Below, piece by piece: positions 12,410 to 60,360 of a stretch of DNA of 64,000 bases (positions within the stretch are counted from its first letter, which is position 1; every line of letters starts with the position of its first letter). The notes under the pieces are model-generated. The model worked only from the letters and a program-made list of their open reading frames with translations. It searched no databases and was not told the DNA's origin. Origin of the DNA: Candidatus Anstonellales archaeon (GTDB taxonomy: Archaea > Micrarchaeota > Micrarchaeia > Anstonellales > CG1-02-47-40); assembly GCA_038869735.1 (NCBI GenBank), contig JAWCQO010000001.1, forward strand, positions 62,001-126,000, given 5' to 3'. A program made the position numbers and the translations under genes.

Positions 12410-12563
12410 TCCCGCCAGTGTGATTTATTCTACATAGGGCCAAAGTTTCATCCTTAGTTTGTTTTGCCTTTATGTTATTGAACACACAACATTCTGGTTC
12501 CTGCTTTTGAAAAAGCAGTTACAAGCTACAGCCAGACGCTCTGCCAGATTGAGCTATGGCGGG
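12410..12563 (-). tRNA. tRNA-Tyr (GTA) with two introns
   Basis: Acceptor CCCGCCA pairs with TGGCGGG and the discriminator is A, giving the C1-G72 pair typical of archaeal tRNA-Tyr. D-arm GCTC/GAGC, anticodon stem TCTGG/CCAGA and T-stem GTGTG/CACAC all pair. The anticodon GTA is at 12527-12529. Two insertions interrupt it: a 27-nt intron at the usual 37/38 site (12499-12525) with an internal CTGCTTTT/AAAAGCAG hairpin, and a 53-nt insertion in the T-loop between nucleotides 59 and 60 (12424-12476). Removing both gives a full-length tRNA with T-loop TTCAATT. CCA is not encoded, and a T-rich stretch follows. A TATA-like TTTTTAAATAT lies about 33 bases upstream. Confidence 0.9.
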
Positions 12564-12710
12564 ATTCCTACCTAAATTAAATGTGATAACATATTTAAAA
12601 AATAAACCTATAGGTTGAAGAAGTTACGGTTTCTTTTTGCTCTTGAAAGGATTAGTTCGTAAGAGGCAATAGAATTTAAATTTAGATAGTAAAATTATAA
12701 ATCAGACATT

Positions 12711-12826
12711 GCCTCGGTGGTGTAGTGGTTAGCATTCTAGGCTGTCGATCTAGCGACCCGGGTTCAAAAAATGTTCAGCCTTCCTGAGAAAGGAGTAACG
12801 GATTTTTGAAAATCCCGGCCGAGGCG
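12711..12826 (+). tRNA. tRNA-Asp (GTC) with a T-loop intron
   Basis: Acceptor GCCTCGG pairs with CCGAGGC, and the discriminator is G. The anticodon loop CTGTCGA holds GTC at 12744-12746, inside the stem CTAGG/TCTAG. T-stem CCGGG/CCCGG is split by a 44-nt insertion at 12769-12812, between nucleotides 59 and 60. The boundary forms a textbook bulge-helix-bulge: TTCA pairs with TGAA (4 bp), flanked by the bulges AAA on the 5' side and AAT on the 3' side. An internal CCTT/AAGG hairpin caps the insert. Splicing leaves T-loop TTCAAAT. CCA is not encoded. Confidence 0.93.
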
Positions 12827-13140
12827 TCGATTTCTTTTATTTTGGAGCGTTGAATAAGAATCAAGTGAAAAGGTTTAAGGTGGAATTAAGAATTTAAACG
12901 GCTCGTTCAGATATCTCTGCTCAAAGATTTTATCAGCAGATGCTTAGACGCCTTGCGTTTTTCTCAAATATTAGTTCCTTTGGCTGGAAATAAGGATTAA
13001 CCATTCGTTCTACCAGATGGATAAAAAAAGCCTTAACTATTGCAACAAATAAGTAAACGGCTTAGGAGTGTAAACGGTCACAAGAAGTCGGTTTGATATC
13101 TAAAATGCTTTTTTAAAGATTGTTGATAATATTTTGTGTA
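12827..13140. other. Intergenic region with no recognisable gene
   Basis: About 310 bases between tRNA-Asp and the exported coiled-coil gene. I see no convincing frame, tRNA, 5S, RNase P or SRP signature. Several short inverted repeats are present: AGACGC/GCGTTT near 12950, CCAT/ATGG near 13001-13020, and AAGCC/GGCTT spanning about 13030-13065. The word AAACGG recurs at about 12896, 13056 and 13074. A small structured RNA or a regulatory region is possible but not supported. Confidence 0.3.
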
Positions 13141-13150
13141 GGTGGTGTAA

Positions 13151-14560
13151 TTGGTTTTTAAGAAATCATTTTTTGTTTTATTAGTTAGTATGATGTTTTT
13201 TGCAACATTATTTTCTTTTTCTATAAACGAATTTCTTGAAAAAAATACGGAACCTTCTGATTTAATCGAAAAAATTCCTCTTATGAGTAATGAGTCCTCT
13301 CTTGTACTTATAAAAATAAATGGGAAAGAGACGTACATTTATTCTCAAGACATAGGCGGTGCGCTGGAATCTGTGGATGAAATAAAAAAAGCACTTATTA
13401 ATGATGCGTATCTAAAACGGGGTTATCAAGGCGTTGTTGGAAGGGCATTAAGTTCTCTGAGAAAGTTTAGAAGCGGAAAAGAGGATTTAGAAGGAAGATG
13501 CGATAGATATTTGGGGGTAGACAAAAAGCCATGTAAAGATAAAGAGAGTTGCTTGGTTGCTTGCTTTGCTGTTCCTCTCTGCAGTGGTGTAATTAATGCA
13601 AATGGGTTTTGGGAAGCGATGCTTGATTATACGCAAAAAAAAGACAGGTTGAACAATGAACTTTATGAAGCTGAAAAGATACTTGAAAACTTTGAGGAAT
13701 CAAAACTTGAAGAACTCGTTTCAAGGCTCAACAACATCATTTCAATTTCAAGTAACTTGTCTCAGAATGGAATTTTTCTAAACCGAACTGATCCTGGTTG
13801 CGATAGATTTGATTCCAGATGCTTTGAGTATTGTCCAAAAATAAATTACTCGACAGAAGAACTGGTAGCTTCAAAAAATGAGCTTGGAGCTTTGAGGGTC
13901 CTCTTCCTAAGCTCCGCAGAACAAGAGGAGAGGGCAGTAAAGATTGCACAAAAAACTGCCGAACAAAAGAAATATTTTGAAGAGAGGATAGAGAAGTTTT
14001 CTAAATTAAAAGATTCTGTATCGAAGAGGATTCAAAAAATAGTTAATGCATCAGATGAAATATTGAGAAATTTAACTTCACAAGAACTCGTAGATGGAAA
14101 GGCAAATCTCTCTGCAATAGGGGATGAGATTTTGGCTCTTGGTAGGGAGGGGGATTATAGGCAGGCATTTGGAAAGGAAGATGAGTTCGAAGCTCTTGCT
14201 TCCAACGTGGAAAGGAAAATAGAAGAGTTAAAGTTAAGGTATTCTAATCTAATTAAAAGATATGAGGAGATTTCAAAAAAGTATGCTTCAGAGGCTAGGT
14301 TCATCGAACCTGGCTCAGAAATTGAGGAGTTGTACCTCTCAATATCCAAAAGCCTCTCTTCAAGAATAAACAACTCAGAGATAGATATGAAATTGGCGGA
14401 TATTGATAACCTTGACGCAAAATTAAACAAGATTATTTCAGAGGCGGCATTATCGGGAAAAAGCGTTGAGGCAGGTCAAGTTACTGGTAATTATTGTCCT
14501 CTTCCCATTGCTATTCTACTTTTAGGATTTGTTGGAGCATTGTATAGTCTCAGACGCTAA
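13151..14560 (+). CDS. Exported coiled-coil protein with C-terminal membrane anchor
   Basis: A 469-residue protein I cannot assign to a family. An N-terminal signal (basic VFKK, then about 20 hydrophobic residues) is followed by an extracellular region. That region has a cysteine cluster at about residues 115-150 (RCDRYLG, CKDKESCLVACFAVPLC), a second at about 220-230 (GCDRFDSRCFEYC), and heptad-like helices to about residue 430. The C-terminus GNYCPLP plus a hydrophobic segment ending in RR is a tail anchor that also resembles a sortase-type sorting signal. The start is a TTG at 13151 with GGTGGTG upstream. Many N-x-S/T sites suggest glycosylation. Probably a cell-surface protein. Confidence 0.7.
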   Translation: MVFKKSFFVLLVSMMFFATLFSFSINEFLEKNTEPSDLIEKIPLMSNESSLVLIKINGKETYIYSQDIGGALESVDEIKKALINDAYLKRGYQGVVGRALSSLRKFRSGKEDLEGRCDRYLGVDKKPCKDKESCLVACFAVPLCSGVINANGFWEAMLDYTQKKDRLNNELYEAEKILENFEESKLEELVSRLNNIISISSNLSQNGIFLNRTDPGCDRFDSRCFEYCPKINYSTEELVASKNELGALRVLFLSSAEQEERAVKIAQKTAEQKKYFEERIEKFSKLKDSVSKRIQKIVNASDEILRNLTSQELVDGKANLSAIGDEILALGREGDYRQAFGKEDEFEALASNVERKIEELKLRYSNLIKRYEEISKKYASEARFIEPGSEIEELYLSISKSLSSRINNSEIDMKLADIDNLDAKLNKIISEAALSGKSVEAGQVTGNYCPLPIAILLLGFVGALYSLRR

Positions 14561-14575
14561 CGGTGATGCGAAGGT

Positions 14576-15643
14576 ATGAGCGAACCACTTCTCCTTACTC
14601 CTGGTCCAGTGTGGTTGCACCCAAAAATAAGAGAAGCAATGTCAAAACAGATAATATACCATAGAGGAAGAGAGATAGAAGAACTGATAAGTGGTCTTGT
14701 TAGTTACATTAAGAAAAACATGAACTGCCAAGATGCCTTTGTGCTTACTGGCTCTGGAACTACCGGTTGGGAATTTGCGTTTGCGAATTTGTGCAAAAAA
14801 GACGAGAAGATACTCTGCCTCTCAAACGGACATTTTGGGGAGAAGCTTGCAAAAGCTGCAAGTTATTTCGGAAATGTGATTGGATATAACCTAGAAGCAA
14901 ACAAAGGATGGAGTTTGGAAAGAGCAAAGGAGAAGATTGATGAAGCTTCTGACGCAACTCTTTTTGCGATGGTTTATAATGAGACAAGCACAGGTGTTGC
15001 AAATCACGCAAAGGATGTCTTCTCTTATGCAAAAAATAAAGGGATGATTACTATATGCGATGCTATATCTGCTTGGGGAGCAATGGAACTTGACATGCAG
15101 TCCTTTGGCATAGATTTCTGCATAAGTGCTTCCCAAAAGGCACTTGGAGCTTCGCCTGGACTTGCAATTGTAGGAGTCTCTCAGGAAGCCATGGAAAGGG
15201 CGCTTTCAAACAAAAGTACCTCATATTACCTTGATATGAAGATACATGCAGAGAATATGAAAAAATTTCAGACCCCTAATACGCCAGCAATAAGCTTAAT
15301 GTATGGGTTGCAGGCTGCTTTTGAACTTTGTGAAGAAAGAGGAGGAATGAGCGCAAATATTGAGAGACACAGAAGAGGGGGGGAGATGGCAAGACGATTT
15401 GTAAAGGATATTGGATATGAGGTCTTTGCCGAAGAAGGATTTTATTCAAATACCATAACTGCATTTTTGCTTGAAAATGCGGATGAGGTGAGACGAAAGT
15501 TATACGAAGAGAGGAATATCGTCACTGCGCGAGATTTTGGGGCTTATAGGGGAAGGTTATTTAGAATATGCCACATAGGAAATTTCACAGAAGTGGATTT
15601 AGGGAAGGCGTTTGAAGCTATAAGAGAAATTTTAGGAAGATGA
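14576..15643 (+). CDS. Class V aminotransferase (serine-pyruvate / alanine-glyoxylate type)
   Basis: PLP-dependent transaminase of fold type I, class V. The N-terminal LLLTPGPVWLHP is typical of the SPT/AGT group. The PLP-binding lysine is in ISASQKALGASPG near residue 195, and the phosphate-contacting stretch is LTGSGTTGWE near residue 60. It overlaps a phosphoglycerate-dehydrogenase-like gene by four bases (ATGA) and SerRS follows. In that context it may supply the transamination step of the phosphoserine route, as class V enzymes do in some archaea, or interconvert serine and hydroxypyruvate. The reaction class is firm; the substrate is inferred from neighbours. Confidence 0.88.
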   Translation: MSEPLLLTPGPVWLHPKIREAMSKQIIYHRGREIEELISGLVSYIKKNMNCQDAFVLTGSGTTGWEFAFANLCKKDEKILCLSNGHFGEKLAKAASYFGNVIGYNLEANKGWSLERAKEKIDEASDATLFAMVYNETSTGVANHAKDVFSYAKNKGMITICDAISAWGAMELDMQSFGIDFCISASQKALGASPGLAIVGVSQEAMERALSNKSTSYYLDMKIHAENMKKFQTPNTPAISLMYGLQAAFELCEERGGMSANIERHRRGGEMARRFVKDIGYEVFAEEGFYSNTITAFLLENADEVRRKLYEERNIVTARDFGAYRGRLFRICHIGNFTEVDLGKAFEAIREILGR

Positions 15644-16563
15644 TTACCACTTTAAAGTCTTTCTATTCTAATTTTAGTTATATGCCGACTATAGTCGTTG
15701 CAGATGAAATGGAAGAAGATGTATTAGAAATGCTAAGTGGAGTTGGAAAAATAGTTTATAAACCATCCAACATTGGGGTTGCTTTAACTGATGCAGATGC
15801 GCTTGTTGTTAGGAGTGCTACACGAGTAACCAGAGAACTTGTAGAGAATTGCAAAAAACTAAAAGTAGTTGCACGGGCAGGGGTGGGACTTGATAATATT
15901 GACATAGAAAGTTGCGAGAAGAAAGGCATAAAGGTATTTAACACTCCCGGTTCCTCAACTGAAGCTGTCGCTGAACTTACAATAGGATTGATGATTTGTG
16001 CTTGTAGAAACGTTGGCAAAGCACATTTTGGAATGAAAAATGGAAAGTGGGAAAAGAAAAAGCTAACCGGCTTTGAAATTGAAGGAAAAACTCTTGGAAT
16101 AATAGGATATGGAAGAATTGGGAAAGCCGTAGCAGAAAAGGCTGTTGCTCTTGGGATGAGAGTGATTGCGTCTGACCCTACTGCAAAAAACGATGCTTAT
16201 GCAAGAATAGTCTCTTTTCAGGAACTTTTGAAAGAGTCGGACATAATATCATTGCACTGTAACTTAACTGATGCAACAAAAGGAATGATAAATAAAGAGG
16301 CAATTGAAATGATGCGAAATGGAGTGGTGATATTAAACCTGGCCCGCGGCGAACTTATAAATGAAGATGCATTGTATGATGGATGCAAATCTGGAAAAAT
16401 TTATGCTGTCGCTCTTGACGTCTATTCAGCCGAACCTTATAAGGGGAAGTTACTAGAATTAGACAACATTATATTCACTCCCCATATCGGAGCCTCTACT
16501 CAAGAAGCTCAAAAAAAAATTGGAGTAGAACTTGTGCATAAATTAAAGCAGGAGTTAGGGTAA
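15640..16563 (+). CDS. serA: D-3-phosphoglycerate dehydrogenase-like, short form
   Basis: NAD-dependent D-2-hydroxyacid dehydrogenase. The NAD-binding motif is LGIIGYGRIGKAVAEKA, and the catalytic set is Arg in NLARGELINEDAL, Glu in DVYSAEP and His in FTPHIGASTQEA. The final GAST after the histidine is characteristic of phosphoglycerate dehydrogenases. At about 307 residues it lacks the C-terminal ACT regulatory domain. The ATG at 15640 overlaps the aminotransferase stop and has AGGAAG upstream; an internal ATG at 15682 (MPTIVVADEM) would match the usual family N-terminus. It would oxidise 3-phosphoglycerate as the first step to serine. Confidence 0.85.
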   Translation: MITTLKSFYSNFSYMPTIVVADEMEEDVLEMLSGVGKIVYKPSNIGVALTDADALVVRSATRVTRELVENCKKLKVVARAGVGLDNIDIESCEKKGIKVFNTPGSSTEAVAELTIGLMICACRNVGKAHFGMKNGKWEKKKLTGFEIEGKTLGIIGYGRIGKAVAEKAVALGMRVIASDPTAKNDAYARIVSFQELLKESDIISLHCNLTDATKGMINKEAIEMMRNGVVILNLARGELINEDALYDGCKSGKIYAVALDVYSAEPYKGKLLELDNIIFTPHIGASTQEAQKKIGVELVHKLKQELG

Positions 16564-16565
16564 AC

Positions 16566-17834
16566 ATGCCAACACTGAAGCAGATTAGAGAAAACGCAGA
16601 AGAATTCTTTCAAGGACTGACAAAGAGGGGGATGGATACAGACATCATAAAAAAATTGCTTGAAATAGACAAACGATGGAGAAAAGAGAAGGCTGAGCTT
16701 GATTTGCTGAGAGCAAAGAAAAACGAATTTTCAAAAATGATTGCTCAAGCAAAGAGCAAGGGTGAAATAATAGAAAAAGAGCTTGAACTGATGAAGAAGA
16801 ATTCTGAAGAGATAACTCAACTTGAAAGAGAGATTAGGACAATAGAATCAAAAATAGAGGAAATTTTACTTCTTATTCCGAATATGCCTCATAACAGCGT
16901 CCCTCTGGGAAATAGCTCTGAAGAAAATGTGGTTGTAAGGGAGGGACCTCAAAAACCAAAAAAGGATTCAAAAAGCGTTGTCCCACACTATGACTTACTC
17001 ACAAAACATAGGCTTATCGACTTTGAAAGAGGAGCAAAGTTAGCTGGACACCGGTTTGCTTTTCTTAGAGGGAAGATAGCGCGTCTGGAAAGGGCTCTTT
17101 CTAATTTTATGGTGGAATGTGCAGTTGGCAGAGGATACACTGAGTATTGGGTTCCATATCTTGTTGGAAAAAAAGCAATGATTGGAAGTGGACACCTTCC
17201 AAAGTTTTCTAAGGAAGTTTATAAGTGTAGCGAAGATGAGCTTTATCTCATTCCCACGGCAGAAGTACCACTTGTCAATCTCTTTGCCGATGAAATTTTA
17301 GATGAAGAGGATTTGCCAGTTAAGATATGCGCATTTAGTCCATGTTTCAGAAGAGAAGCGGGAGAGTACCAAAAGGACATAAAAGGTTTCATTCGCCAAC
17401 ACCAGTTTGACAAGGTTGAGTTAGTAAAATTCTGCTTGCCGGATGAATCTTACAAGGAATTAGAAAGCATGGTGAAAGATGCTGAGTCTGTTTTGCAAAG
17501 GCTCGGATTACCTTATAGAGTTGTTGAGCTTTGTACCGGCGATTTAGGCTTTGCATCTGCAAAAACTTATGATTTGGAAGTTTGGATTCCGTCTCAGGAC
17601 AAATATAGAGAGGTATCATCTTGTTCAAACTGCACTGACTTTCAGTCAATAAGAGCTAATATCAAGTTTTGGAGAAAGGGAAAGCCGGAATATGTTCACA
17701 CTTTAAATGGAAGTGGAATTGCAGTTGGAAGGACGCTTGTTGCACTAGTCGAAAATTTTCAGGATGAGGATGGAATTGATATTCCAAAACCGTTGCAGGA
17801 TTTTATGCAGTGCGAAAGAATAGAATGGGAATAA
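16566..17834 (+). CDS. serS: Seryl-tRNA synthetase
   Basis: Class IIa synthetase that charges tRNA-Ser. The N-terminal 110 residues form the long antiparallel coiled-coil arm that recognises the variable arm of tRNA-Ser. Motif 2 is in FSPCFRREAGEYQKDIKGF, the serine-site region in LYLIPTAEVPLVNLF, and motif 3 in HTLNGSGIAVGRTLVALVEN. It is the common bacterial/archaeal form, not the rare methanogen type. It starts two bases after the dehydrogenase stop, so serine synthesis and charging share a transcript. A cognate tRNA-Ser(GCT) lies at 54447-54561. Confidence 0.97.
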   Translation: MPTLKQIRENAEEFFQGLTKRGMDTDIIKKLLEIDKRWRKEKAELDLLRAKKNEFSKMIAQAKSKGEIIEKELELMKKNSEEITQLEREIRTIESKIEEILLLIPNMPHNSVPLGNSSEENVVVREGPQKPKKDSKSVVPHYDLLTKHRLIDFERGAKLAGHRFAFLRGKIARLERALSNFMVECAVGRGYTEYWVPYLVGKKAMIGSGHLPKFSKEVYKCSEDELYLIPTAEVPLVNLFADEILDEEDLPVKICAFSPCFRREAGEYQKDIKGFIRQHQFDKVELVKFCLPDESYKELESMVKDAESVLQRLGLPYRVVELCTGDLGFASAKTYDLEVWIPSQDKYREVSSCSNCTDFQSIRANIKFWRKGKPEYVHTLNGSGIAVGRTLVALVENFQDEDGIDIPKPLQDFMQCERIEWE

Positions 17835-17850
17835 TTGGGTGCTTGGCCTT

Positions 17851-19146
17851 ATGAGCACAAAAGATAGGTGGTCGGGCAGTTTAGAGTTTATAATTGCTGC
17901 GATAGGTTCTGCTGTTGGTATCGGCAACATTTGGAGATTTCCATATATAATGGGACAGAATGGAATGTTGGCATTTTTAGTTCCATACACAGTCTGCTTG
18001 ATTGTGATTGGAGTGCCACTGCTTATGCTTGAGATAGGAGCTGGGCTGTATTTTAGGGTCTCTTATTTAGAAGTTTTAAAGAAGATTGGGTTCCCCCAGA
18101 GCCTTGGAATTTTTACACTTTTGGTAGTGTTCTTTATTTTGAGCTATTACGTCGTTATTACAAGCTGGATGTTGTTTTATGCATTCGGTTTTTTTACTGG
18201 TCTAGACGTGAATTTTGGGATTATATCAGGAAGTTATATATCTGTCCCATTTTTCCTTGCGACTATCTTTCTCCTTTACGTAGTGATGTCACTTGGAATA
18301 AAAAAAGGAATTGAGCCAGCTGTCATGGTGTTTGTTCCTATTCTCGCTTTGCTATTAGTGGTGATAACCGCATATATGTTGATAATGATGCCTCAGACCA
18401 TAGAGAAAACGCTTGAAAAAATTGAATTGGATATGGAATATTTTATGAGTCCTCGAACGTGGCTTTTTGCTTCTGCTCAAGTAGTATTTTCACTTTCGAT
18501 AGGCATGGGATTGATGCTTACTTATGGTGCCTATGTAAAGGATAGATTAGACCTAAAAAAGTCTGCGCTGACGATATGTTTAGGAGACTTGACAGTATCA
18601 CTTCTTTCAGTGTTTATAATATTTCCACTTGCATTCCTATCTGGTACTTCGATAGAAGAAGGAGCACTTTTATCAATGGAAGCGCTTCCAGTCATTTTTG
18701 GAATGATGCCGTTTGGTAAATTTGTGGGAGGTATTTTTTTTCTTCTTGTATTTATAGCAGCATTTACTTCGGCAATTTCCATGGCCGAGATGGGTATTCA
18801 CTCGTTTGATAGTAAACTGAAACTTTCAAGACAGAAAGCGGTCGAGTATTTTCTTCTTGCACTTTTGTTAGTGAGTAGTGTAGTGCTATTGAGTTATTCG
18901 CCTCTCAACTTATCACTGTTTGGAAAACCTATCCTGGACTTATTTGATGTTATATTTGGCACAATGCTTTCGCCTTTGTCCGCATTTTTAGTTTTGGTTG
19001 CGCTAGCTCATTATTGGGATATAAAAAGGTTCTTACTGCTGGCAGGAATAATGAATAGAACTCTGTCGAGAATACTTGAGTATATTCTAAAATGGGTCTC
19101 TCCGGCTATTCTTATACTGCTTTTTAGTTACGGGATTACTCATTAA
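17851..19146 (+). CDS. Sodium-dependent symporter, NSS/SNF family
   Basis: Neurotransmitter:sodium symporter homologue of the LeuT type, which imports an amino acid or amine with sodium. The first membrane segment carries the hallmark AAIGSAVGIGNIWRFPYIM, whose unwound centre binds substrate and sodium. About 11-12 hydrophobic segments cover the 431 residues. I chose the ATG at 17851; a GTG at 17839 is an alternative. It follows SerRS by 16 bases, making an amino-acid substrate plausible. The end overlaps the converging thioredoxin reductase gene by 11 bases. Confidence 0.93.
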   Translation: MSTKDRWSGSLEFIIAAIGSAVGIGNIWRFPYIMGQNGMLAFLVPYTVCLIVIGVPLLMLEIGAGLYFRVSYLEVLKKIGFPQSLGIFTLLVVFFILSYYVVITSWMLFYAFGFFTGLDVNFGIISGSYISVPFFLATIFLLYVVMSLGIKKGIEPAVMVFVPILALLLVVITAYMLIMMPQTIEKTLEKIELDMEYFMSPRTWLFASAQVVFSLSIGMGLMLTYGAYVKDRLDLKKSALTICLGDLTVSLLSVFIIFPLAFLSGTSIEEGALLSMEALPVIFGMMPFGKFVGGIFFLLVFIAAFTSAISMAEMGIHSFDSKLKLSRQKAVEYFLLALLLVSSVVLLSYSPLNLSLFGKPILDLFDVIFGTMLSPLSAFLVLVALAHYWDIKRFLLLAGIMNRTLSRILEYILKWVSPAILILLFSYGITH

Positions 19147-20077: not shown

Positions 20078-20091
20078 GCACCCATCACCCT

Positions 20092-21513: not shown

Positions 21514-21585
21514 GAAAAAATATTGGAAAGAGAAAATATAAAGCTGATTGAGTTAAGGATATAGTTGTTGCCTTGAAACGGGGTG

Positions 21586-25770: not shown

Positions 25771-25833
25771 TCCTTTTCACCAGAGCACCGTTATGATTTG
25801 AAAAAAATAAAATTAAATATGATTGCAAAGACC

Positions 25834-28960: not shown

Positions 28961-29097
28961 GCAGGGGTGGCGGAGCCTGGTCAAACGCGTCAGACTCAAG
29001 ACCAAACAGAGTTCGTGCGACATCTGATGGCTTAGGCCTTCGCAGGTTCGAATCAGTTTTCCAAAAAGACTTTCCAAAGAGAATCCTGCCCCCTGCA
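28961..29097 (+). tRNA. tRNA-Leu (CAA) with two introns
   Basis: Acceptor GCAGGGG pairs with CCCCTGC, and the discriminator is A. Anticodon stem TCAGA/TCTGA holds loop CTCAAG-A with anticodon CAA at 28997-28999. A 21-nt intron lies at 37/38 (29001-29021). The long variable arm (GGC/GCC stem) is as expected for Leu. T-stem GCAGG/CCTGC is interrupted by a 31-nt insertion between nucleotides 59 and 60 (29053-29083). Splicing gives T-loop TTCGAAT. The boundary helix is relaxed: TTC pairs with GAG next to an AAT bulge. CCA is not encoded. A TATA-like TTTTTTAATA lies about 27 bases upstream. Confidence 0.92.
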
Positions 29098-47233: not shown

Positions 47234-47237
47234 AGGA

Positions 47238-48651: not shown

Positions 48652-48656
48652 TTGAC

Positions 48657-48687
48657 TGAAACAATATAAATTAGATAATGAAACAAT
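48657..48687. promoter_or_regulatory. Direct repeat, putative operator between copper operon and regulator
   Basis: TGAAACAAT occurs twice in the same orientation, at 48657-48665 and 48679-48687, 22 bases apart, or about two helical turns. The repeats bracket AATATAAATT, a TATA-like element for the rightward gene; GTTTTTAATG (about 48689-48698) could serve the leftward operon. This layout suits a dimeric regulator that controls both promoters. The repeat is seen; regulation is inferred. Confidence 0.5.
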
Positions 48688-48716
48688 GTTTTTAATGTAG
48701 GTTGTAGTGTGAAAAT

Positions 48717-49187: not shown

Positions 49188-49197
49188 AAAGAAAAAG

Positions 49198-49443: not shown

Positions 49444-49490
49444 CCTCACTACCTCCTTTGTCAGATTTTGCGTTGGTTGGTTATGGAAGA

Positions 49491-49500
49491 GGTTATTTAA
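49491..49500. promoter_or_regulatory. AT-rich TATA element shared by two divergent genes
   Basis: GTTATTTAAA lies about 27 bases before the ATG at 49523 and about 50 bases before the TRAM start on the other strand. Rightward transcription would begin near 49520, making the second ATG of the surface protein leaderless. Confidence 0.45.
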
Positions 49501-49510
49501 AAATGATGGT

Positions 49511-51820: not shown

Positions 51821-54356
51821 AGAATACTTTTTTTCCTATTTCATTTGTAACAAAATAAACAAGAACCAAAAAAAGTATAATTAAAAGAAGCGTAGGGTTT
51901 GGAGGGGAAAACCTGAAAATTTCGGCTGTTATTGGCGTATAGATGAAAGCAAACGTAAGAATTATTGCAAAAAGCGAAGTGATGATCAATGAAAGGGAAG
52001 GTTGGCTTTTCCAGGCAGGGAGTGTTGTGCGGAGGGAGAAGATTATCGTTATCTCTGTGAGAATGGAGAGTAAGAACCAAGACGTTCTGAACTGTGATAC
52101 TGGGGTATTAAGGAAAAGCAACATGAGAAGAATTAAGAGAACATCAAAAAATGAGCTAATGAGCCCAAAAAAGAGCATAAAGCGAAAAATCAATGAGTTA
52201 TCCCATCTTTGAGGTTTTTTAGTGTATGATGAATCAACATTGTCTGTAGATATTGCAAACATTGGAACGTCGGATATGAGATTTGTAAGAAGTATTTGTG
52301 AAGGGAGTAAAGGGATGAAAGGAAGAATGACTGACGAAAGGCTAACGGTCAGCATATTTCCAAGATTTGCGCTAACCGTATAACGGACATATTTGAAAAT
52401 GTTTCCAAAGATTTTTCTTCCCTCTTCAACGCCTTCTGAGATTATATCCAAACTTTTTTGTAGGAGGATTATATGAGATGCCCCCTTTGCTACGTCTGCT
52501 GCGGTATCAACGGATATACCAACATCAGCTGCCCGGAGAGCAGGAGCGTCATTTATTCCGTCGCCCAAAAAACCAACAACATGTCCGTTGGAGCGCAAAG
52601 CCTCAACAATTTTTAGTTTCTGATCAGGGGTAACGCGTGCAAAAACGTCATATTTTTCCACAGCCTCCAAGAGTTCTTTTTCGCTCATCTCTGAAATTTC
52701 GCTTCCAAGGATTATTCTGTTGTCTTTTAGTGGAAGACCAATGTCATTGCATAGTTTTCTCGTGACATTTGGGTCGTCACCTGTGAGAATCTTCACTTGG
52801 ATGTTGAGTTGATTTAAGCGTTTTATCGCATGTGAAGCAGTCGCTTTTGGGGGATTTGAAAAAAGAACAAAGCCTATGAATATGAGGTTCTTTTCGTCGT
52901 GAAGGGAATAATCGGATTTGGACTCTATCTCGCTATATGCAACTCCTATTGTACTTAACCCATCTTTTGTATATTGAGAGATTGCGTTCAATACCTCCTC
53001 TTTTTTCTTCTCAACTGGGAGGACAGTTGACTTCATCTTGATTCTTGAACAGACGTCTAAGACGGATTCCGGCGCTCCTTTTGTTATTATATATTTCTTT
53101 GCTCCCTCTTTGACTATCACCGACATTCTTTTTCTTTTGAAATCAAAAGGAATCTCATAGAGCTTTTCAAATCTGGATATATCTGCACCGGCCTTTTTTC
53201 CTTCCTTTTTTATTGCAATATCTATTGGGTTTCCACGAATTCTTGTTGAACCAACCGCTGAGTTACAGAGAAGAGCGTATTCAAAGACATCATGATTGTC
53301 TTGCATATCAAGGTCAACATACTTGAAGAAGCGAAGTCCCTCTTCAGTAAGAGTCCCTGTTTTATCAGTACAAAGAACATCCATGTTTCCTAAATCTTCT
53401 ATTGCTGCCAGCTTTTTTGTAACAACCTTATTTTTTGCAAGTTTTAGGCTACCTACTGAAAGCGCTATAGTAATTATTGCTGGAAGCGCTTCTGGAGTTA
53501 TGCCAACAGCTAAGGCAAGCGCAAAGAGGGCTGAGTCAAGAAGAGGATTTTTCTCTCCATGACCTGCCAAATAGTTTGTAATAAATACAAAAAGAGTGAT
53601 TGCAGCCATTAACTTCATAAGCATAAATCCAAACTTTCTTACACTAATCTGAAAATCGGATTCGGGCACACGCGAAGAAAAGACTGCAGTAGTCTTCCCA
53701 AAAAACGTATTATTACCAGTGAATACAACTACGCCTATGGCATAGCCTTCAAGGATCGTTGTTCCCATAAAGAGTCCATTTGATATTTCTTGAGGAGTGT
53801 TTGATGATGGGGGGGAGGGACGGACGTTTTTTTCAACCGGTCTTGATTCTCCAGTTAAGATACTTTGGTCTACAATAATGCCTGACCTTGACTCCAAAAT
53901 ACGCAAGTCAGCTGGGACTATGTCTCCAAGACCGACAGAGACGACATCGCCAGGGACAAGCTCGGAGGAGGATATTTGGAACTTCTTACCTCCTCTTATT
54001 ACGGTAGCTTTATAGCTGTAATATTTTTTGAGTTCGGACAAAACCTTTTCTGCTTTGTATTCTTGAAAGAAGCCAAAAACGACGCTTGCAAGGATAAGTA
54101 AAAAAATCACAAGAGAATCAAGTAGGTCTCCAAGGAAGATAGATATGAGGCACCCAAAAAGAAGTATTAGAATGGGGGGAGTCTTTAGTTGAGATAGCAG
54201 GATTTCTTGGCTGTTGCGTCTATCTTTGTCAGGAATTATGTTTGGTCCGTATTTTTCCAGTCTATTTTTTGCTTCTTTTTCGGAAAGACCGTATGGGGAG
54301 CTTGCAAGCTCAGCTAATAGAGCATTCGCCTCTAAAGACCATATGGTTGAGTTCAC
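51783..54356 (-). CDS. P-type ATPase, magnesium-type (P3B-like)
   Basis: An 857-residue cation pump. The N-terminal cation-ATPase domain has GLSEKEAKNRLEKYGPN. TGES is in ILTGESRPVEKN, the phosphorylation site is VLCTDKTGTLTEEG, the ATP-site lysine is in YIITKGAPES and the hinge is LGDGINDAPALRAADVG. Membrane helix 4 has GITPEALPAIITIALS, close to the TPEMLP form of MgtA, and there is no HMA domain or CPC motif, so magnesium or a related divalent ion is the best guess. A proton or calcium pump is the alternative. The start is a GTG at 54356 near a TATA-like element. It overlaps the converging surface-protein gene by 38 bases. Confidence 0.85.
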   Translation of the reverse strand: MNSTIWSLEANALLAELASSPYGLSEKEAKNRLEKYGPNIIPDKDRRNSQEILLSQLKTPPILILLFGCLISIFLGDLLDSLVIFLLILASVVFGFFQEYKAEKVLSELKKYYSYKATVIRGGKKFQISSSELVPGDVVSVGLGDIVPADLRILESRSGIIVDQSILTGESRPVEKNVRPSPPSSNTPQEISNGLFMGTTILEGYAIGVVVFTGNNTFFGKTTAVFSSRVPESDFQISVRKFGFMLMKLMAAITLFVFITNYLAGHGEKNPLLDSALFALALAVGITPEALPAIITIALSVGSLKLAKNKVVTKKLAAIEDLGNMDVLCTDKTGTLTEEGLRFFKYVDLDMQDNHDVFEYALLCNSAVGSTRIRGNPIDIAIKKEGKKAGADISRFEKLYEIPFDFKRKRMSVIVKEGAKKYIITKGAPESVLDVCSRIKMKSTVLPVEKKKEEVLNAISQYTKDGLSTIGVAYSEIESKSDYSLHDEKNLIFIGFVLFSNPPKATASHAIKRLNQLNIQVKILTGDDPNVTRKLCNDIGLPLKDNRIILGSEISEMSEKELLEAVEKYDVFARVTPDQKLKIVEALRSNGHVVGFLGDGINDAPALRAADVGISVDTAADVAKGASHIILLQKSLDIISEGVEEGRKIFGNIFKYVRYTVSANLGNMLTVSLSSVILPFIPLLPSQILLTNLISDVPMFAISTDNVDSSYTKKPQRWDNSLIFRFMLFFGLISSFFDVLLILLMLLFLNTPVSQFRTSWFLLSILTEITIIFSLRTTLPAWKSQPSLSLIITSLFAIILTFAFIYTPITAEIFRFSPPNPTLLLIILFLVLVYFVTNEIGKKVFFTFFSNKYNKTE

Positions 54357-54446
54357 AGAGATGGATGTTATAAAAAAGGTTAAAAATATATTTGAGTAAG
54401 AGTGCTTGAAAATAATTTAAATATAGGATGGCATTATTTTTATCAA

Positions 54447-54561
54447 GCTGAGGTCGCATAGCCTGGTTAGTGCGCTGGATTGCTAATCCAGTGTCGAAAG
54501 ACGCGCAGGTTCAAAGCAAAAAAATGTATCAAGCTTCGTGGGGAAAATCCTGCCCTCAGCG
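54447..54561 (+). tRNA. tRNA-Ser (GCT) with a T-loop intron
   Basis: Acceptor GCTGAGG pairs with CCTCAGC; the discriminator is G. Anticodon stem CTGGA/TCCAG holds loop TTGCTAA with anticodon GCT at 54482-54484. The long variable arm (GTC/GAC-type stem) fits Ser. T-stem GCAGG/CCTGC is split by a 32-nt insertion at 54516-54547, between nucleotides 59 and 60. TTC of the exon pairs with GAA near the 3' end of the insert. Splicing gives T-loop TTCAAAT. CCA is not encoded, and a T-run follows at 54562. A TATA box, ATTTAAATAT, lies about 28 bases upstream. Confidence 0.93.
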
Positions 54562-54627
54562 TTTTTTATTGTTTTTATAGTTTCTACTTTCTTCGGAAAT
54601 TAGGAGAGTATTGAGAAGGATTAGAGA

Positions 54628-54897
54628 ATGGGAGGGTCCGGTATTGCCGAACGCACAAGTAGGGGTTGTTTGGGCCCGTGCTCCGCCTTGGCTCCTCCAA
54701 GCACAAATACAAAAATCTTAGGGCTGCTCCTTCCGGCCTGACCCGGTTCGATTTTTGCTTCGCCCTGCAGGTCAAGACATCTACGCACTAGAGCCCAAGC
54801 CGCCTGACTTGGGCGAAAGCGACGCAACCGGATTTTCGGTCCTGCCTTGAGGGGACATGCAGTTACAAGGGACCCCTAGCCCCCCGACCTATCCCAT
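54628..54897 (-). ncRNA. Signal recognition particle (7S) RNA
   Basis: RNA scaffold of SRP, about 270 nt. The 5' domain reads GGTCGGGGGGCTAGGGGTCC then CTTGTAACTG, the Alu-domain form of archaeal 7S RNA. The S domain carries the universal helix 8: GGGTCAGGCCGG-AAGGAGCAGCCC, with the asymmetric loop that binds SRP54. The 5' ATGGGA pairs with TCCCAT at the 3' end, giving the terminal helix. The gene is GC-rich against AT-rich surroundings. A TATA box sits about 25 bases upstream of the inferred 5' end, which supports the start at 54897 within a few bases. Confidence 0.93.
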
Positions 54898-54917
54898 AAA
54901 TTTAGGGATTATTTCAT

Positions 54918-54926
54918 TTATAAGAT
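54918..54926 (-). promoter_or_regulatory. TATA box of the SRP RNA gene
   Basis: On the reverse strand CTTATAAATG is centred about 25 bases upstream of the predicted SRP RNA 5' end at 54897, the normal archaeal distance. Confidence 0.65.
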
Positions 54927-54977
54927 TTCGTTATTATGGCTTTTTCAAATAAACAAAAACAGGATTACCCAAAAAGT

Positions 54978-54987
54978 TATATATAAG
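54978..54987 (+). promoter_or_regulatory. TATA box of ftsZ
   Basis: TTATATATAA is about 28 bases before 55010, where transcription should begin, leaving a leader of roughly 15-20 bases that contains AGGAAGGGTGATGG before the ftsZ start codon. Confidence 0.65.
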
Positions 54988-55025
54988 AGGTGATTAAGGA
55001 TGTTTAGGCGTTGATAGGAAGGGTG

Positions 55026-56081
55026 ATGGGAATGCAGGCTGATGAGGGAGAGGGGTTTAAAGGGCAGGACAAAGTGTATGTAGAAAATGAAAACATCGGC
55101 CCAAAGATAATGGTAGTTGGTGTGGGTGGAGCAGGTTGCAATACAATAAATAGAATAATTAGAGGAGGGGGAGGAGCATACGCTGAGCTTCTTGCTATAA
55201 ATACCGATAAGGTCCATTTGTCTACAGTCTCAAACGAAGCAAAGAGAATACTTATAGGAAAGGGAGTAACTAAGGGACTTGGTGCAGGAGGGTTTCCTGA
55301 AATAGGAAAGAAATGCGCAATGGTAGCAAAAAAAGAGCTTGAGAACATACTTCAAGGTGTTGATCTCCTTTTCATTACTGCAGGAATGGGAGGCGGCACA
55401 GGAACTGGTGCAGCACCAGTAATTGCTCAAATAGCAAAGGAAGCTGGCGCTATCGTTGTCTCAATGGTTACTTATCCATTTAATCTGGAGCGATCAAGAT
55501 TGAAAATAGCGCAAGAAGGAGTAGATGAACTTTGCAAGAGTTCAGATACGTTAGTCTTGATAGATAACAATAGATTATTGAATTATGCCCCGAATATCCC
55601 GATTGAGAAGGCTTTTGAACTTGTAGACGAGATTACTTCAAAAGCAGTTAAAGGGATTGTAGAGACGATATCTGTGCCTTCACTTATAAATCTGGATTTT
55701 GCTGACGTCAGGTCAGTGATGAATGAAGGCGGAGTTTCTATGATTGCTGTTGGTGAGGCTTCGGGAGTGGATAGAGTAAATACAATTGCAGAAAACACTC
55801 TAAAGCATAGATTACTAGATGTTGATTATGAAGGCGCTAAGGGGGTGCTGCTTCACATAACTGGTGGACAGGACCTTACTCTTGGTGATGCAACAGCTGT
55901 TGGAGAGAGGTTTACTGAGATGGTTGACAAAAGTGCCAATGTAACTTTGGGAGCAAGAATTGACCCCGCAATGCGAGATAGAATTGAAGTAATCGCAATC
56001 TTTACCGGAGTAAAATCAGAAAGCCTGATGGGTAAAAAGAACGACGAAGGAGAAGGAAGAATCGAAGATCTGTTATTTTAG
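55026..56081 (+). CDS. ftsZ: Cell-division GTPase FtsZ
   Basis: Tubulin-like GTPase that forms the division ring. The GTP-binding set is complete: VGVGGAGCNTINRI near residue 30, the signature TAGMGGGTGTGAAPVIA near residue 118, and MVTYPFNLERSR then IDNNRLLNYAPNIP. The synergy T7 loop is LINLDFADVRSVM. The C-terminus is short (EGRIEDLLF), with a small conserved end peptide. The start may be ATG 55026 or 55032; both follow the AGGAAGG site. A putative terminator hairpin follows. Confidence 0.97.
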   Translation: MGMQADEGEGFKGQDKVYVENENIGPKIMVVGVGGAGCNTINRIIRGGGGAYAELLAINTDKVHLSTVSNEAKRILIGKGVTKGLGAGGFPEIGKKCAMVAKKELENILQGVDLLFITAGMGGGTGTGAAPVIAQIAKEAGAIVVSMVTYPFNLERSRLKIAQEGVDELCKSSDTLVLIDNNRLLNYAPNIPIEKAFELVDEITSKAVKGIVETISVPSLINLDFADVRSVMNEGGVSMIAVGEASGVDRVNTIAENTLKHRLLDVDYEGAKGVLLHITGGQDLTLGDATAVGERFTEMVDKSANVTLGARIDPAMRDRIEVIAIFTGVKSESLMGKKNDEGEGRIEDLLF

Positions 56082-56085
56082 AAGT

Positions 56086-56125
56086 CCAGATAAGAGTGTA
56101 AGGAGCTAGCTTTCCGTTTATCTGG
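56086..56125 (+). terminator. Hairpin after ftsZ
   Basis: CCAGATAA (56086-56093) pairs with TTATCTGG (56118-56125); the palindrome AGCTAGCT lies within the loop. GCATTTTTATTT follows. It could end ftsZ transcription or separate it from the converging truD gene. Confidence 0.45.
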
Positions 56126-56152
56126 GCATTTTTATTTGGGAAGGAAGAGCTT

Positions 56153-57370
56153 TTAGTGATTTCCCGAGCCGATGAATTCTTGGAGTGCTACTGTTCCGTA
56201 GGCTCCCTTTTGTAGTGAGAACCTGAAGAGTCCACTCTCTCTTACAAATGAGAAGTCCACCATAGGCGCAAGAGCAGACCTATAAGCGCCTTTTACTGAA
56301 AGAGCTGGGAACTTTTTAATTTTGAAAAGTGAGAGAGTTATTCCTTCCTCTTCTAAAAGCTTCTTTTCTATCTCAGTTAGTTCGCTTTCTTTTGTTTCGT
56401 ATCCTAGCAGTTTGCAGACCAAAAAAGAGTTATTCTGCGACCCATCTTTTTTGATTGAGAGGTCTGGAAAGCCTAACTTTCCTCTTCCGCAGTAGAATTC
56501 CCCTTCTCTTGCAACAAAATCTCTCGTATGGACACGTACTTCAAGAGCCTTGTTGAATAAGTAAGATTGATAGGCATGAAGGAACATAATTGATAGTGCC
56601 CGAGGGAGTCGCTGGACGGCTCCTACAAAGTCATTCGGGTATTTTGTTAGATGGTGTAGCATAAGTCTCTCATACTTGAGGTGAGAGGGAAAATTTTTTA
56701 GTGCTAAGTTAAAATCGTGGGTTTCTGCCAATTCTTTTCTTGCTTGTACTGCCTGCGGGTCTTTCTCGTTGCTTGAATCGGAGAGGTAGCTCATGATTGC
56801 TTCTTTAAATTTCTCTTGAAGAAGTAATTTTCCAATTTTATGCGTATTTGATCTAAGTGAGCCAAACCTCTGAGAACCAAAGTAATTAGGGAACAAAAGT
56901 CTGGTTTCACTTGCGATTTCTTTTATTGCCTCCTCCTTGCCTGAGGTTTGAGGAATGAGAGCTGTAAACCTGTTTCCCAACAGTTCGCCCATTCTTACCG
57001 GTTCTTCGCAAGCCCATGAACCATTTATCTGAATATCCTGGATTTTGAGTGACAGGAGTTTTTCTGGCTCTATAGCAAATACGCTACAAAGTTGCGTTGT
57101 GGTGGCGTTTTTATCTTTTATTCCTGCGTGAGAGAAGCGCTTGTGAGTTATATGAAGTGCTTTTGCAATCGCAAGCTCGGCTTGTATTGTACTCCAACCT
57201 GATTTTTGGAGGACAAAGTGTGCAAACTTCCCATCGGAGGAAGATTTTTCAATCTTTTTTCCTACTTCAAGCACTTCACAAGTAGGGGTTATCTCCTCGA
57301 CAACGAAAGTTTGAGGAGTGGGGAAGAATGGAATATTTAGAGAGGGGAGACTTGCAAGGCGACGCATCAT
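56153..57370 (-). CDS. truD: tRNA pseudouridine synthase TruD
   Basis: Modifies U13 of tRNA (and in archaea possibly other sites). The catalytic aspartate is Asp86 in HAGIKDKNATTTQ, and the TruD-specific NYFGSQRFGSLR lies near residue 170; the insertion domain follows. FLHAYQSYLFNKALEVR and the C-terminal RFSLQKGAYGTVALQEFIG are typical of the family. At 405 residues it is normal for archaea. It diverges from topoisomerase I with 54 bases between starts. Confidence 0.96.
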   Translation of the reverse strand: MMRRLASLPSLNIPFFPTPQTFVVEEITPTCEVLEVGKKIEKSSSDGKFAHFVLQKSGWSTIQAELAIAKALHITHKRFSHAGIKDKNATTTQLCSVFAIEPEKLLSLKIQDIQINGSWACEEPVRMGELLGNRFTALIPQTSGKEEAIKEIASETRLLFPNYFGSQRFGSLRSNTHKIGKLLLQEKFKEAIMSYLSDSSNEKDPQAVQARKELAETHDFNLALKNFPSHLKYERLMLHHLTKYPNDFVGAVQRLPRALSIMFLHAYQSYLFNKALEVRVHTRDFVAREGEFYCGRGKLGFPDLSIKKDGSQNNSFLVCKLLGYETKESELTEIEKKLLEEEGITLSLFKIKKFPALSVKGAYRSALAPMVDFSFVRESGLFRFSLQKGAYGTVALQEFIGSGNH

Positions 57371-57424
57371 GGGTTATTTTAAACATTATTAATAAATAAA
57401 GAGAGGGTTTGAGGGAAATGAAGT

Positions 57425-59467
57425 ATGCAGCTTATTGTTTGCGAAAAGCCAAGAGTAGCACAGAAGATAGCCTCTGCGCTTGCTGAAGGAGAGATTAGAA
57501 TAGGAAAGTTTAGGAAGGTCAAATATTATATCTTAAAGCGAGAGGGGCAAGAGATTTGTGTTGCACCTGCAGTTGGGCACGTCTATTCTCTTGACCAAAA
57601 ATCAGGAGAAAAGAATAGCTATCCTGTTTTTGATGTAGATTGGAGAAAAGCTTATGAGGTTGAAAAAGAAGCTCATTACACAAAAGATTATATTGAACTT
57701 CTTGAGGAGCTGGGAAAAAAGGCAGATGAGATAATAATAGCTTGTGACTATGACATAGAAGGAAGTCTTATAGGGTATAATGTACTTCGCTTTGCCTGTG
57801 GACGAAGCGAAGGAGCGCGAATGAAGTTTTCGACTCTCACCTCTGAAGAGCTAATTGAAGCTTATGAAAAACGCACAGGGGTAGATGTTCTTAATGCCAA
57901 ATCTGGTGAGGCACGGCATATCTTGGATTGGATATGGGGGATAAATTTAAGCCGCGCCTTGATGGAGGCTATAAGAAAAAGAGGAAGCTTCAAGATCATG
58001 AGCATAGGACGTGTACAGGGTCCCGCTCTCTCAATCCTTGCAAAAAGGGAGAAAGAGATATTACAATTTAAGCCTACACCTTACTGGGAGGTATTATTTG
58101 AAGCAAAAGGAGTTACATTTACTCACGAAAAGGAAAGATTTGAAAAAAGAGAGGAAGCAAAAAAGGCGTATGAAACAACAAGTAAAGAAGGAAGAGTTAT
58201 AAAAATAGAAAAGAAAGAGTATTTACAACCTGCGCCGTCTCCTTTTGATTTAACAAGCTTGCAGATTGAGGCTCATGCCTGTCTCGGTATTGACCCAAAA
58301 CGAACACTTGATATAGCTCAGAGGCTGTATGAGGCGTCTCTTATCTCCTATCCGCGCACAAGTTCCCAAAAACTTCCCTTACAGCTCAGGTTGCCGCTTA
58401 TAATACAACGGCTATCTCAAAATCCCAAATATTCCGAACACGCTAGGGCGTTAATTGCAAATAAAAGATTTACGCCAAAGGAGGGAAAAAAGGAGGATGC
58501 GGCCCACCCAGCTATCCACCCTACCGGCATTATTAGCAAATTGGAGGGTACAGAAGAAAAACTCTATGACCTTATAGTAAGGCGTTTTCTTTCTACTTTT
58601 GCCGAACCTGCACGAAGGGAAAGCCAAAAAATAATAATTGAAGCCGGCAGTCAGAGGTATAGGACTTCTGGAAACAGAACTTTGTTTGAAGGATGGTTTG
58701 AGATTTACAAGCCTTACTTGAGAATGGAAGAAGTAAGCTTACCCTCTTTTGCAGAAGGCGAAATAGTTAAGGTAGAAGGACTTAGAATCGTGGAAAAAAG
58801 GACTAAGCCTCCAAAGAGATACACGCCTGCATCCATAATAGCAGAGCTTGAGAGGATGGGGCTTGGCACAAAGGGCACGAGAGCTGTGATTATAGACACT
58901 CTATTTAAAAGAGGGTATATCCACGGAAAACAGATAAGGGTAACCCCATTTGGAATGTCAGTTTATGAAACCCTCTCTGAGAATGTTCCTGAAATAATGG
59001 ATGAGGGGATGACAAGAAAACTTGAATATGAAATGGAGAGGATACAGAATGGGGAAATTCAAGAAGAGATAGTAATCGAAAATGGAAAAAGGCTGTTGGA
59101 AGAAGCAATAGTTCATCTAAACTCCCTTCAAAATGAAGTAGGCAAGGCTTTGTCAGAGGGGTTAGTTGAAAAGAAGGCTGCAGATTCTATTTTAGGAAAA
59201 TGTAGATGCGGGCATGATATTAAAGAAATAACATCAAAATCAAACAAAAGATTCGCAGGTTGCTCCAATTATCCAAACTGCAGTATAACTTACCCGCTTC
59301 CCCAAGAAGGTAAAATTGAACCACTTGGAAGTGTATGCGAAACTTGTGGGACTCCTCAAATAAAGGTTAGTAGAAAACGAAGGAAGGCATTTATTATGTG
59401 CCTAGACCCAAACTGTGCCACAAAGGAGGGATGGGGGGAGTGGAAGAGCAAGAAAAAAGAGGGATAA
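57425..59467 (+). CDS. topA: DNA topoisomerase I (type IA)
   Basis: Type IA enzyme that relaxes negative supercoils through a covalent 5'-phosphotyrosine. The Toprim domain opens IVCEKPRVAQKIASAL and has ACDYDIEGSLIGYN. The catalytic Tyr309 is in LISYPRTSSQKLP. The C-terminus has two zinc-ribbon repeats, LGKCRCGHDIKE with GCSNYPNCSITYPLP and SVCETCGTPQIKV with MCLDPNCATKEGW. There is no reverse-gyrase helicase domain, so it is not reverse gyrase; I see no sign here of obligate hyperthermophily. Length 680 is usual for archaeal TopA. Confidence 0.96.
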   Translation: MQLIVCEKPRVAQKIASALAEGEIRIGKFRKVKYYILKREGQEICVAPAVGHVYSLDQKSGEKNSYPVFDVDWRKAYEVEKEAHYTKDYIELLEELGKKADEIIIACDYDIEGSLIGYNVLRFACGRSEGARMKFSTLTSEELIEAYEKRTGVDVLNAKSGEARHILDWIWGINLSRALMEAIRKRGSFKIMSIGRVQGPALSILAKREKEILQFKPTPYWEVLFEAKGVTFTHEKERFEKREEAKKAYETTSKEGRVIKIEKKEYLQPAPSPFDLTSLQIEAHACLGIDPKRTLDIAQRLYEASLISYPRTSSQKLPLQLRLPLIIQRLSQNPKYSEHARALIANKRFTPKEGKKEDAAHPAIHPTGIISKLEGTEEKLYDLIVRRFLSTFAEPARRESQKIIIEAGSQRYRTSGNRTLFEGWFEIYKPYLRMEEVSLPSFAEGEIVKVEGLRIVEKRTKPPKRYTPASIIAELERMGLGTKGTRAVIIDTLFKRGYIHGKQIRVTPFGMSVYETLSENVPEIMDEGMTRKLEYEMERIQNGEIQEEIVIENGKRLLEEAIVHLNSLQNEVGKALSEGLVEKKAADSILGKCRCGHDIKEITSKSNKRFAGCSNYPNCSITYPLPQEGKIEPLGSVCETCGTPQIKVSRKRRKAFIMCLDPNCATKEGWGEWKSKKKEG

Positions 59468-59513
59468 AAGTTAAAAAAGAGAAGCTCCAAACTACTCCGT
59501 AAGGCGATGTAAC

Positions 59514-60170
59514 ATGAGGATAGGCACTCTTGTGATTTTCTTATTTTTGTTTGGAGTGTTTTATCCCCAGATAACTCCTGGTTCGTGTAGTGATGGAACG
59601 CCGTATGGGAAATGTTCTAATGTTACTGCAGGTAAGTTTTGTACTGGGTTAATAACTAATCCAACACTTCAGGATAACGCAATACGGTGCAAGTGTAGCT
59701 CTGTGCCAGGATACACTACGGACCCGTCTAACCCTGATAGATGCATAGCTCTTCAGGCCGGATGTGCAAACAACAATCCCCCATGTAAGGAATATGAGGA
59801 ATGTATAAACAACAAGTGTGAGAAAAAGAAAGGATGCCAATATGGCAATCCGCCGTGTCCTCCGACACAGGAATGTGTAGATAACCAGTGTGTAATTAAA
59901 AGCGGTTGTCTTTTCAACAACCCCCCATGTCCGTTAGGACAAGTTTGCAATGCAGTTACCAATACATGCATCTCGGCATTGGAAATAGAAACGGCCCAAC
60001 CTTCGCAATCACCTTCTGCTTCTCCGCCAACCAAAACTGAAGCACCTGAGACAGAGGAGGAGGGACCACCTGAGCTTATTACTTATGAACCAAGAAAAGT
60101 AGGATTGTGTTGTGCAAGTGCCCTTGCCATTTTGGCAGTTGGGTTTATGGTTATTGTAAAGAAGAGTTAG
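59514..60170 (+). CDS. Exported Cys-rich repeat protein with C-terminal anchor
   Basis: A 218-residue surface protein I cannot assign. A signal peptide covers residues 1-20. A first Cys-rich region (SCSDGTPYGKCSNVT to GRCIAL-like end) is followed by three tandem units of about 25 residues, each of the pattern GC-x(3-4)-NPPC-x(5)-EC-x(2)-NxC: AGCANNNPPCKEYEECINNK, KGCQYGNPPCPPTQECVDNQ and SGCLFNNPPCPLGQVC. They look like small disulphide knots. A Pro/Ser/Thr/Glu linker (about 155-190) leads to a membrane anchor ending IVKKS, preceded by two cysteines. ATG 59514 follows AAGGCGATG. It lies alone between topA and tRNA-His. Confidence 0.75.
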   Translation: MRIGTLVIFLFLFGVFYPQITPGSCSDGTPYGKCSNVTAGKFCTGLITNPTLQDNAIRCKCSSVPGYTTDPSNPDRCIALQAGCANNNPPCKEYEECINNKCEKKKGCQYGNPPCPPTQECVDNQCVIKSGCLFNNPPCPLGQVCNAVTNTCISALEIETAQPSQSPSASPPTKTEAPETEEEGPPELITYEPRKVGLCCASALAILAVGFMVIVKKS

Positions 60171-60253
60171 ATTTTTTGCTTTAAAGTTGTTTACTTTAAA
60201 ATTGATTTGTTTATCTTAATTATTTATAATAGCTAAGCTACAATTATTTTTGT

Positions 60254-60360
60254 GGCCACGGTGGTGTAGCTAGGCAGCACAGGGGACTGTGGATCCCCGG
60301 GCCCGAGTTCAAACTAACGCCAATTAACGGCGCTATAAAGAACAAATCTCGGCTGTGGCC
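60254..60360 (+). tRNA. tRNA-His (GTG) with a T-loop intron
   Basis: G-1 at 60254 pairs with the discriminator C at 60360, the identity pair of tRNA-His. Acceptor GCCACGG pairs with CTGTGGC (one G-T). Anticodon stem GGGGA/TCCCC holds loop CTGTGGA with anticodon GTG at 60289-60291. T-stem CCGAG/CTCGG is split by a 33-nt insertion at 60314-60346, between nucleotides 59 and 60, with an internal CGCC/GGCG hairpin. Splicing gives T-loop TTCAAAT. CCA is not encoded. TATTTATAAT lies about 30 bases upstream. Confidence 0.92.

Follow-up and report, generated by a model that had tools for sequence, protein, structure and literature searches.

The window, the 64-kb stretch of micrarchaeal DNA analysed here, contains five tRNA genes (Tyr-GTA, Asp-GTC, Leu-CAA, Ser-GCT and His-GTG), and in every one of them an insert interrupts the T-loop. 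The preliminary description of this DNA had placed inserts of 53, 44, 31, 32 and 33 nt in these genes, and both the places and the lengths are correct; it had not noticed the canonical introns at position 37/38 of tRNA-Tyr and tRNA-Leu(CAA). The genes and their introns are listed below in window coordinates (BHB, bulge-helix-bulge).

12410-12563, minus strand: tRNA-Tyr(GTA) with two introns; ARAGORN calls Tyr-GTA after excision
12424-12476 in 59/60 numbering, minus strand: T-loop intron of tRNA-Tyr, 53 nt; BHB pairing favours 58/59, that is, 12425-12477
12499-12525, minus strand: canonical 37/38 intron of tRNA-Tyr, 27 nt
12711-12826, plus strand: tRNA-Asp(GTC) with one intron; ARAGORN calls Asp-GTC after excision
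12769-12812, plus strand: T-loop intron of tRNA-Asp at 59/60, 44 nt; TTCA/TGAA, BHB formed in the MFE fold
28961-29097, plus strand: tRNA-Leu(CAA) with two introns; ARAGORN calls Leu-CAA after excision
29001-29021, plus strand: canonical 37/38 intron of tRNA-Leu(CAA), 21 nt
29053-29083, plus strand: T-loop intron of tRNA-Leu(CAA) at 59/60, 31 nt; relaxed BHB, TTCG/AGAG
54447-54561, plus strand: tRNA-Ser(GCT) with one intron; Rfam tRNA match of 47 bits that skips the insert; ARAGORN calls Ser-GCT after excision
54516-54547, plus strand: T-loop intron of tRNA-Ser(GCT) at 59/60, 32 nt; relaxed BHB, TTCA/GGAA
60255-60360, plus strand: tRNA-His(GTG) with one intron; ARAGORN calls His-GTG after excision
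60314-60346 in 59/60 numbering, plus strand: T-loop intron of tRNA-His, 33 nt; BHB pairing favours 58/59, that is, 60313-60345

Close downstream of tRNA-Ser(GCT), the opposite strand carries a gene for archaeal SRP RNA (54626-54899, minus strand; Rfam RF01857, 104 bits).

Removal of the inserts leaves TTCRANT inside a perfect 5-bp T-stem in all five tRNAs, as the preliminary description had claimed, and each excised product takes the normal cloverleaf expected of tRNAs with archaeal BHB introns; ARAGORN calls all five with the correct anticodons. On the window as written, ARAGORN finds no tRNA, even with introns allowed, and Rfam at its gathering cut-off finds only Ser-GCT, with the insert skipped. 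The earlier statement that default finders would miss such genes therefore holds for ARAGORN and for the Rfam cut-off (four of five missed) but not for tRNAscan-SE 2.0, whose archaeal mode does search for noncanonical introns (PMC8450103). Across the genome, ARAGORN calls none of 17 tRNAs with T-arm introns as precursors and 16 of them after removal of the T-arm and 37/38 introns; the seventeenth, Pro-GGG, which has an apparent further intron at 32/33, stays uncalled. Excision of an equal length a few bases off proved a poor control, with ARAGORN still accepting many such products.

Pairing at the exon–intron junctions was scored at two adjacent positions. In the BHB model for an intron at 59/60, exon T54-R57 pairs with the four bases that precede the intron's last two; for an intron at 58/59, exon G53-C56 pairs with the same four bases. 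At 59/60, the central helix is fully Watson–Crick in Asp (TTCA/TGAA, 4/4), has three Watson–Crick pairs of four in Ser-GCT (TTCA/GGAA) and has two plus one GU pair in Leu-CAA (TTCG/AGAG). His pairs at 58/59 with GTTC/GAAC (4/4, versus 1/4 at 59/60), and Tyr does so with GTTC/GAAT (three Watson–Crick pairs and one GU, versus 1/4 Watson–Crick at 59/60). A single 59/60 site had been proposed for all five tRNAs; it is borne out in Asp, Leu and Ser but not in His and Tyr, for which the best BHB pairing falls at 58/59. The spliced product is the same for His at either position and differs for Tyr, where a cut at 58/59 would leave TTCAAAT and one at 59/60 TTCAATT.

With 58/59 or 59/60 allowed, the five window introns average 3.2 Watson–Crick pairs of four, compared with 1.78 for shuffled introns (0 of 5000 shuffles as high); with 59/60 forced, the mean is 2.2 compared with 1.26 (95/5000). 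The genome's 15 introns at these two positions, which have strict or relaxed BHBs at their junctions, average 3.13 of four against 1.64 for shuffles (0/5000). The 126-nt T-loop insert of Leu-GAG forms a poor BHB. When the precursors were folded without constraint, the expected BHB was clear for Asp (z = -2.4) and His (z = -3.2) and was absent from the MFE structures of Tyr, Leu and Ser.

The genome encodes a single EndA, a 392-residue protein in one open reading frame that aligns end to end with the ε2 EndA of ARMAN-2 (4fz2; E = 1e-130, 50% identity). It keeps the catalytic residues Y236, H251 and K282, the ARMAN-specific-loop (ASL) residues Y160 and K161 (the latter being Lys162 in this protein), and K228, R275 and W384 (roles of the catalytic, loop and RNA-contacting residues from PMC12397907). 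This architecture, one αN-α-βC protomer some 390 residues long that contains the catalytic Tyr/His/Lys and the ASL Tyr-Lys, identifies the splicing endonuclease as ε2-type. Efficient removal of relaxed-BHB introns has been reported for two types of enzyme, ε2 and (αβ)2 (PMC6379350). In named genomes, relatives of this EndA come first from micrarchaea and then from aenigmatarchaea; that of Micrarchaeota archaeon CG1_02_47_40 is the nearest (76% identical). A gene for the RtcB ligase is also present (E = 7e-170), and gene content thus provides both a ligase and an endonuclease fit for relaxed or noncanonical BHBs.

We conclude, with a probability of about 0.9, that the window inserts are T-loop introns of the protein-spliced, archaeal BHB kind; the T-loop would be a universal landing site for such introns. 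To judge from the gene sequences, the introns are probably removable by the unusual ε2 endonuclease; we infer that splicing occurs and that the introns spread by gene-to-gene copying. The inserts might instead be retained, the tRNAs working with an enlarged T-loop or being pseudogenes. We regard this as very improbable: the stems are intact, the BHB complementarity exceeds chance and a matching endonuclease is encoded. Moreover, the genome's tRNA matches in the covariance searches include no uninterrupted copy of the five tRNAs, and these searches gave no second gene for any of the five anticodons.

In the splicing mechanism that we propose, the T-stem would remain paired in the precursor, and the four last exon nucleotides before the 5′ bulge would pair with a 4-nt complement just ahead of the intron's last two bases to give a strict or relaxed BHB. 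The ε2 EndA would then cleave in both bulges, leaving the exons to be joined by RtcB. No other part of tRNAs is as uniform as the T-arm. Since it is near-identical across tRNAs from about position 51 to 59, an intron that complements it should be spliceable from any host tRNA: one whose sixth- to third-last bases complement TTCR or GTTC would form its own BHB wherever it lands, and at 56/57 the intron would complement GGGT, a match seen as GCCY-AA. The 37/38 site would differ, its exon half varying with the anticodon. With an endonuclease tolerant of relaxed BHBs, the cost of T-loop insertions would be low. Because the promoters of archaeal tRNA genes lie upstream, an interruption of the T-loop would leave them intact; in the window genome, the upstream A+T-rich element is the same in genes with T-loop introns and in others.

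The window genome (884 kb in 15 contigs, 97% complete) yields 44 tRNA genes, one per anticodon except for initiator and elongator Met, in an inventory that combines covariance searches with our own intron-aware scan of the stretches around matches and that may miss genes. Arg-GCG and Cys-GCA tRNAs were not found by these searches. T-arm introns occur in 17 of the 44 (Ala-GGC, Ala-TGC, Asp, Gly-CCC, His, Leu-CAA, Leu-GAG, Leu-TAG, initiator Met, Pro-GGG, Arg-TCG, Ser-CGA, Ser-GCT, Ser-GGA, Thr-TGT, Val-TAC and Tyr); 27 lack one, and 15 of the 44 are free of introns altogether. The best BHB position is 59/60 for 12 of the 17, 58/59 for three, 56/57 for one and 53/54 for one. These counts of interrupted and uninterrupted tRNAs overturn the suggestion in the preliminary description of a genome-wide 59/60 rule. 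That all five window tRNAs have such an intron is a local run; the hypergeometric probability of that draw is 0.006, with no correction for the choice of this window on that very ground. Anticodon-arm introns are present in about 20 of the 44 tRNAs and D-arm introns in two (Val-CAC and Gln-CTG), and by our own count the 44 genes hold about 39 introns. Within this genome no intron sequence family was detected, with 0 pairs above the shuffle limit against 0.7 expected.

Several genes outside the window have unusual architectures. tRNA-Val(CAC) (L011:1341-1448) contains a 37-nt D-loop intron in which exon GTCG pairs with intron CGAC, and the D-arm after its excision equals that of Val-GAC. tRNA-Gln(CTG) (L022:1501-1613) combines a 22-nt D-arm intron (exon GGTC paired with intron GACC) with an 18-nt intron at 37/38. 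The 37/38 introns of tRNA-Ile(GAT) (L033:153-347; 121 nt) and tRNA-Trp(CCA) (L035:356-541; 114 nt) are very long and could hold a guide RNA. tRNA-Pro(GGG) (L160:189-348) has apparent introns at 32/33 and 53/54. The T-loop of tRNA-Thr(GGT) (G000:C1:38341-38458, minus strand) begins TGCAA, with G at the near-invariant T55, and the same is seen in CG1_02_47_40 (L184); this tRNA is without a T-arm intron in both genomes.

Our same-family comparison consists of one genome, that of CG1_02_47_40, hereafter the sister, for which the entries G002 and G004 gave identical hits. There, 38 of the 42 tRNAs detected carry T-arm introns, at 53/54, 56/57, 58/59 or 59/60, the exceptions being Phe, Gln-TTG, Arg-CCT and Thr-GGT. 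The 34 automatically resolved introns fall at 56/57 (13), 58/59 (10), 59/60 (9) and 53/54 (2); those of Asn, Pro-CGG, Ser-TGA and Ser-CGA were located by visual inspection, and Pro-CGG has two introns in its T-arm. A near-rule of T-arm interruption thus holds in the sister, though over four positions. Introns would accumulate at a universal T-loop landing site, and they have done so moderately in the window genome (17/44) and almost completely in the sister (38/42). Elsewhere in the order, other families have scattered T-loop introns only, at 59/60 and 56/57. Scattered introns of this kind also occur in Fermentimicrarchaeum, in four of ten long matches examined, and in the genome LFW-35.

The sister's introns, moreover, are related to one another. 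Seventeen of those at 58/59 and 59/60 form clusters of similar sequence, and 79 intron pairs exceed the 99.5% shuffle limit against 2.8 expected. One family, starting (A/T)CCCATATGGGGG, includes T-loop introns as well as the 37/38 introns of Ser-TGA and Ser-CGA, and has members in intergenic DNA. A motif search for this family gave nine sites in the sister, of which four lie within T-loop introns and two immediately next to tRNA-Ala genes; the window genome gave no site; among the 295 class genomes searched, the start motif occurs in the sister only and is absent from the other 294. Elements of the form CCCATATGGGGG...CCCCCC are seen at L274, L278 and L281 of the sister in all three settings (T-loop introns, 37/38 introns and intergenic DNA). 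A second family, resembling AGCTTTGACTGGCG...GCCGGCAAAGC, is found at 59/60 of several tRNAs and apparently also in the D-loop of Val-GAC; it is also present at Thr-TGT of the more distant LFW-35.

On these sequences, spread of introns by copying appears well supported in the sister and is unproven in the window genome, whose introns share no sequence, so that copying between genes is supported in the sister only. A tentative reading, which we hold at somewhat less than even odds, is that in this micrarchaeal family the conserved T-arm serves as a universal landing site for small mobile BHB introns, non-coding elements whose insertions are rendered harmless by host tRNA splicing. In the sister, these would be the dispersed, palindromic first family, found at T-loop and 37/38 positions, next to tRNA genes and between genes, and the second family, found in T-loops and, apparently, in one D-loop.

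Selection against tRNA-targeting integrases, which would keep the T-loop interrupted, is a different explanation, raised in the preliminary description and published earlier by Randau and Soll in 2008, as cited in PMC4090602 and PMC3218864. Archaeal viruses do use T-arm sequences as att sites (PMC4090602), and the only tyrosine-recombinase match in the window genome (L291; G000:C11:10845-11299) has a broken reading frame and lies on a contig on which no tRNA was found. We nevertheless consider it improbable: 27 of the 44 tRNAs keep an uninterrupted T-arm that is still available, and the sister's introns behave as spreading sequence families, for which no host benefit is needed.

The T-loop introns might also be old, inherited at one ancestral site rather than recently gained. 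All five window tRNAs carry T-arm introns in the sister too, and the introns of the window genome are mutually unlike, as expected of old sequences. However, no intron sequence shared between the two genomes was detected at orthologous tRNAs (three pairs above the limit against 2.9 expected), several sister introns sit elsewhere (56/57 in Ser-GCT, 58/59 in Leu-CAA) and relatives outside the family mostly lack T-loop introns. Ancestral inheritance therefore seems rather unlikely to us, although less so than protection from integrases.

T-loop introns were already known, as the preliminary description had said: positions 56/57 and 59/60 are among the known noncanonical archaeal intron sites (PMC4090602). 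The closest parallel is in the Thermoproteales (Pyrobaculum; PMC4090602, PMC4033280, PMC8450103), which likewise have T-arm introns at 56/57 and 59/60, several introns per gene and strict or relaxed BHBs. Intron transposition has been described in this group (PMC4033280), as read from intron families common to different tRNAs; families of this kind are found in the sister (79 pairs versus 2.8 expected) and not in the window genome (0 pairs). Thermoproteales average 0.84 introns per tRNA gene, and in P. calidifontis 71 introns are spread over 46 tRNA genes (PMC8450103); the intron load of the window genome is of this order. They differ in belonging to another phylum and in using an (αβ)2 endonuclease in place of ε2, and the sister differs in the concentration of its introns in the T-arm.

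Within the same phylum, ARMAN-1 and ARMAN-2 have multiple-intron tRNAs (PMC4033280; Fujishima 2011 and Hirata 2012, as reported in PMC4033280, PMC6379350 and PMC12397907). The ARMAN-2 EndA, as described in those later papers, cuts relaxed BHB/BHL introns and is of the same ε2 type, with the same key residues, as the enzyme here (50% identical). Permuted tRNAs of Thermofilum pendens also use the 59/60 junction; their halves are reversed, whereas the micrarchaeal genes here have the normal order with an intron (PMC3218864). Near-complete T-arm interruption in Micrarchaeota was not reported in the literature searched, a comparison that covers genomes other than ARMAN for T-loop counts. The introns are thus of a known kind, and the new part is the comparison with the sister, which is extreme at 38 of 42.

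These results extend the dense noncanonical tRNA intron load, described mainly in hyperthermophilic Thermoproteales, to a micrarchaeal family. In such genomes the tRNA counts of ordinary gene finders are badly wrong, as with ARAGORN's zero of five here. The sister is a natural test case for the spread of tRNA introns, and for the question of whether a permissive splicing endonuclease suffices to allow it.
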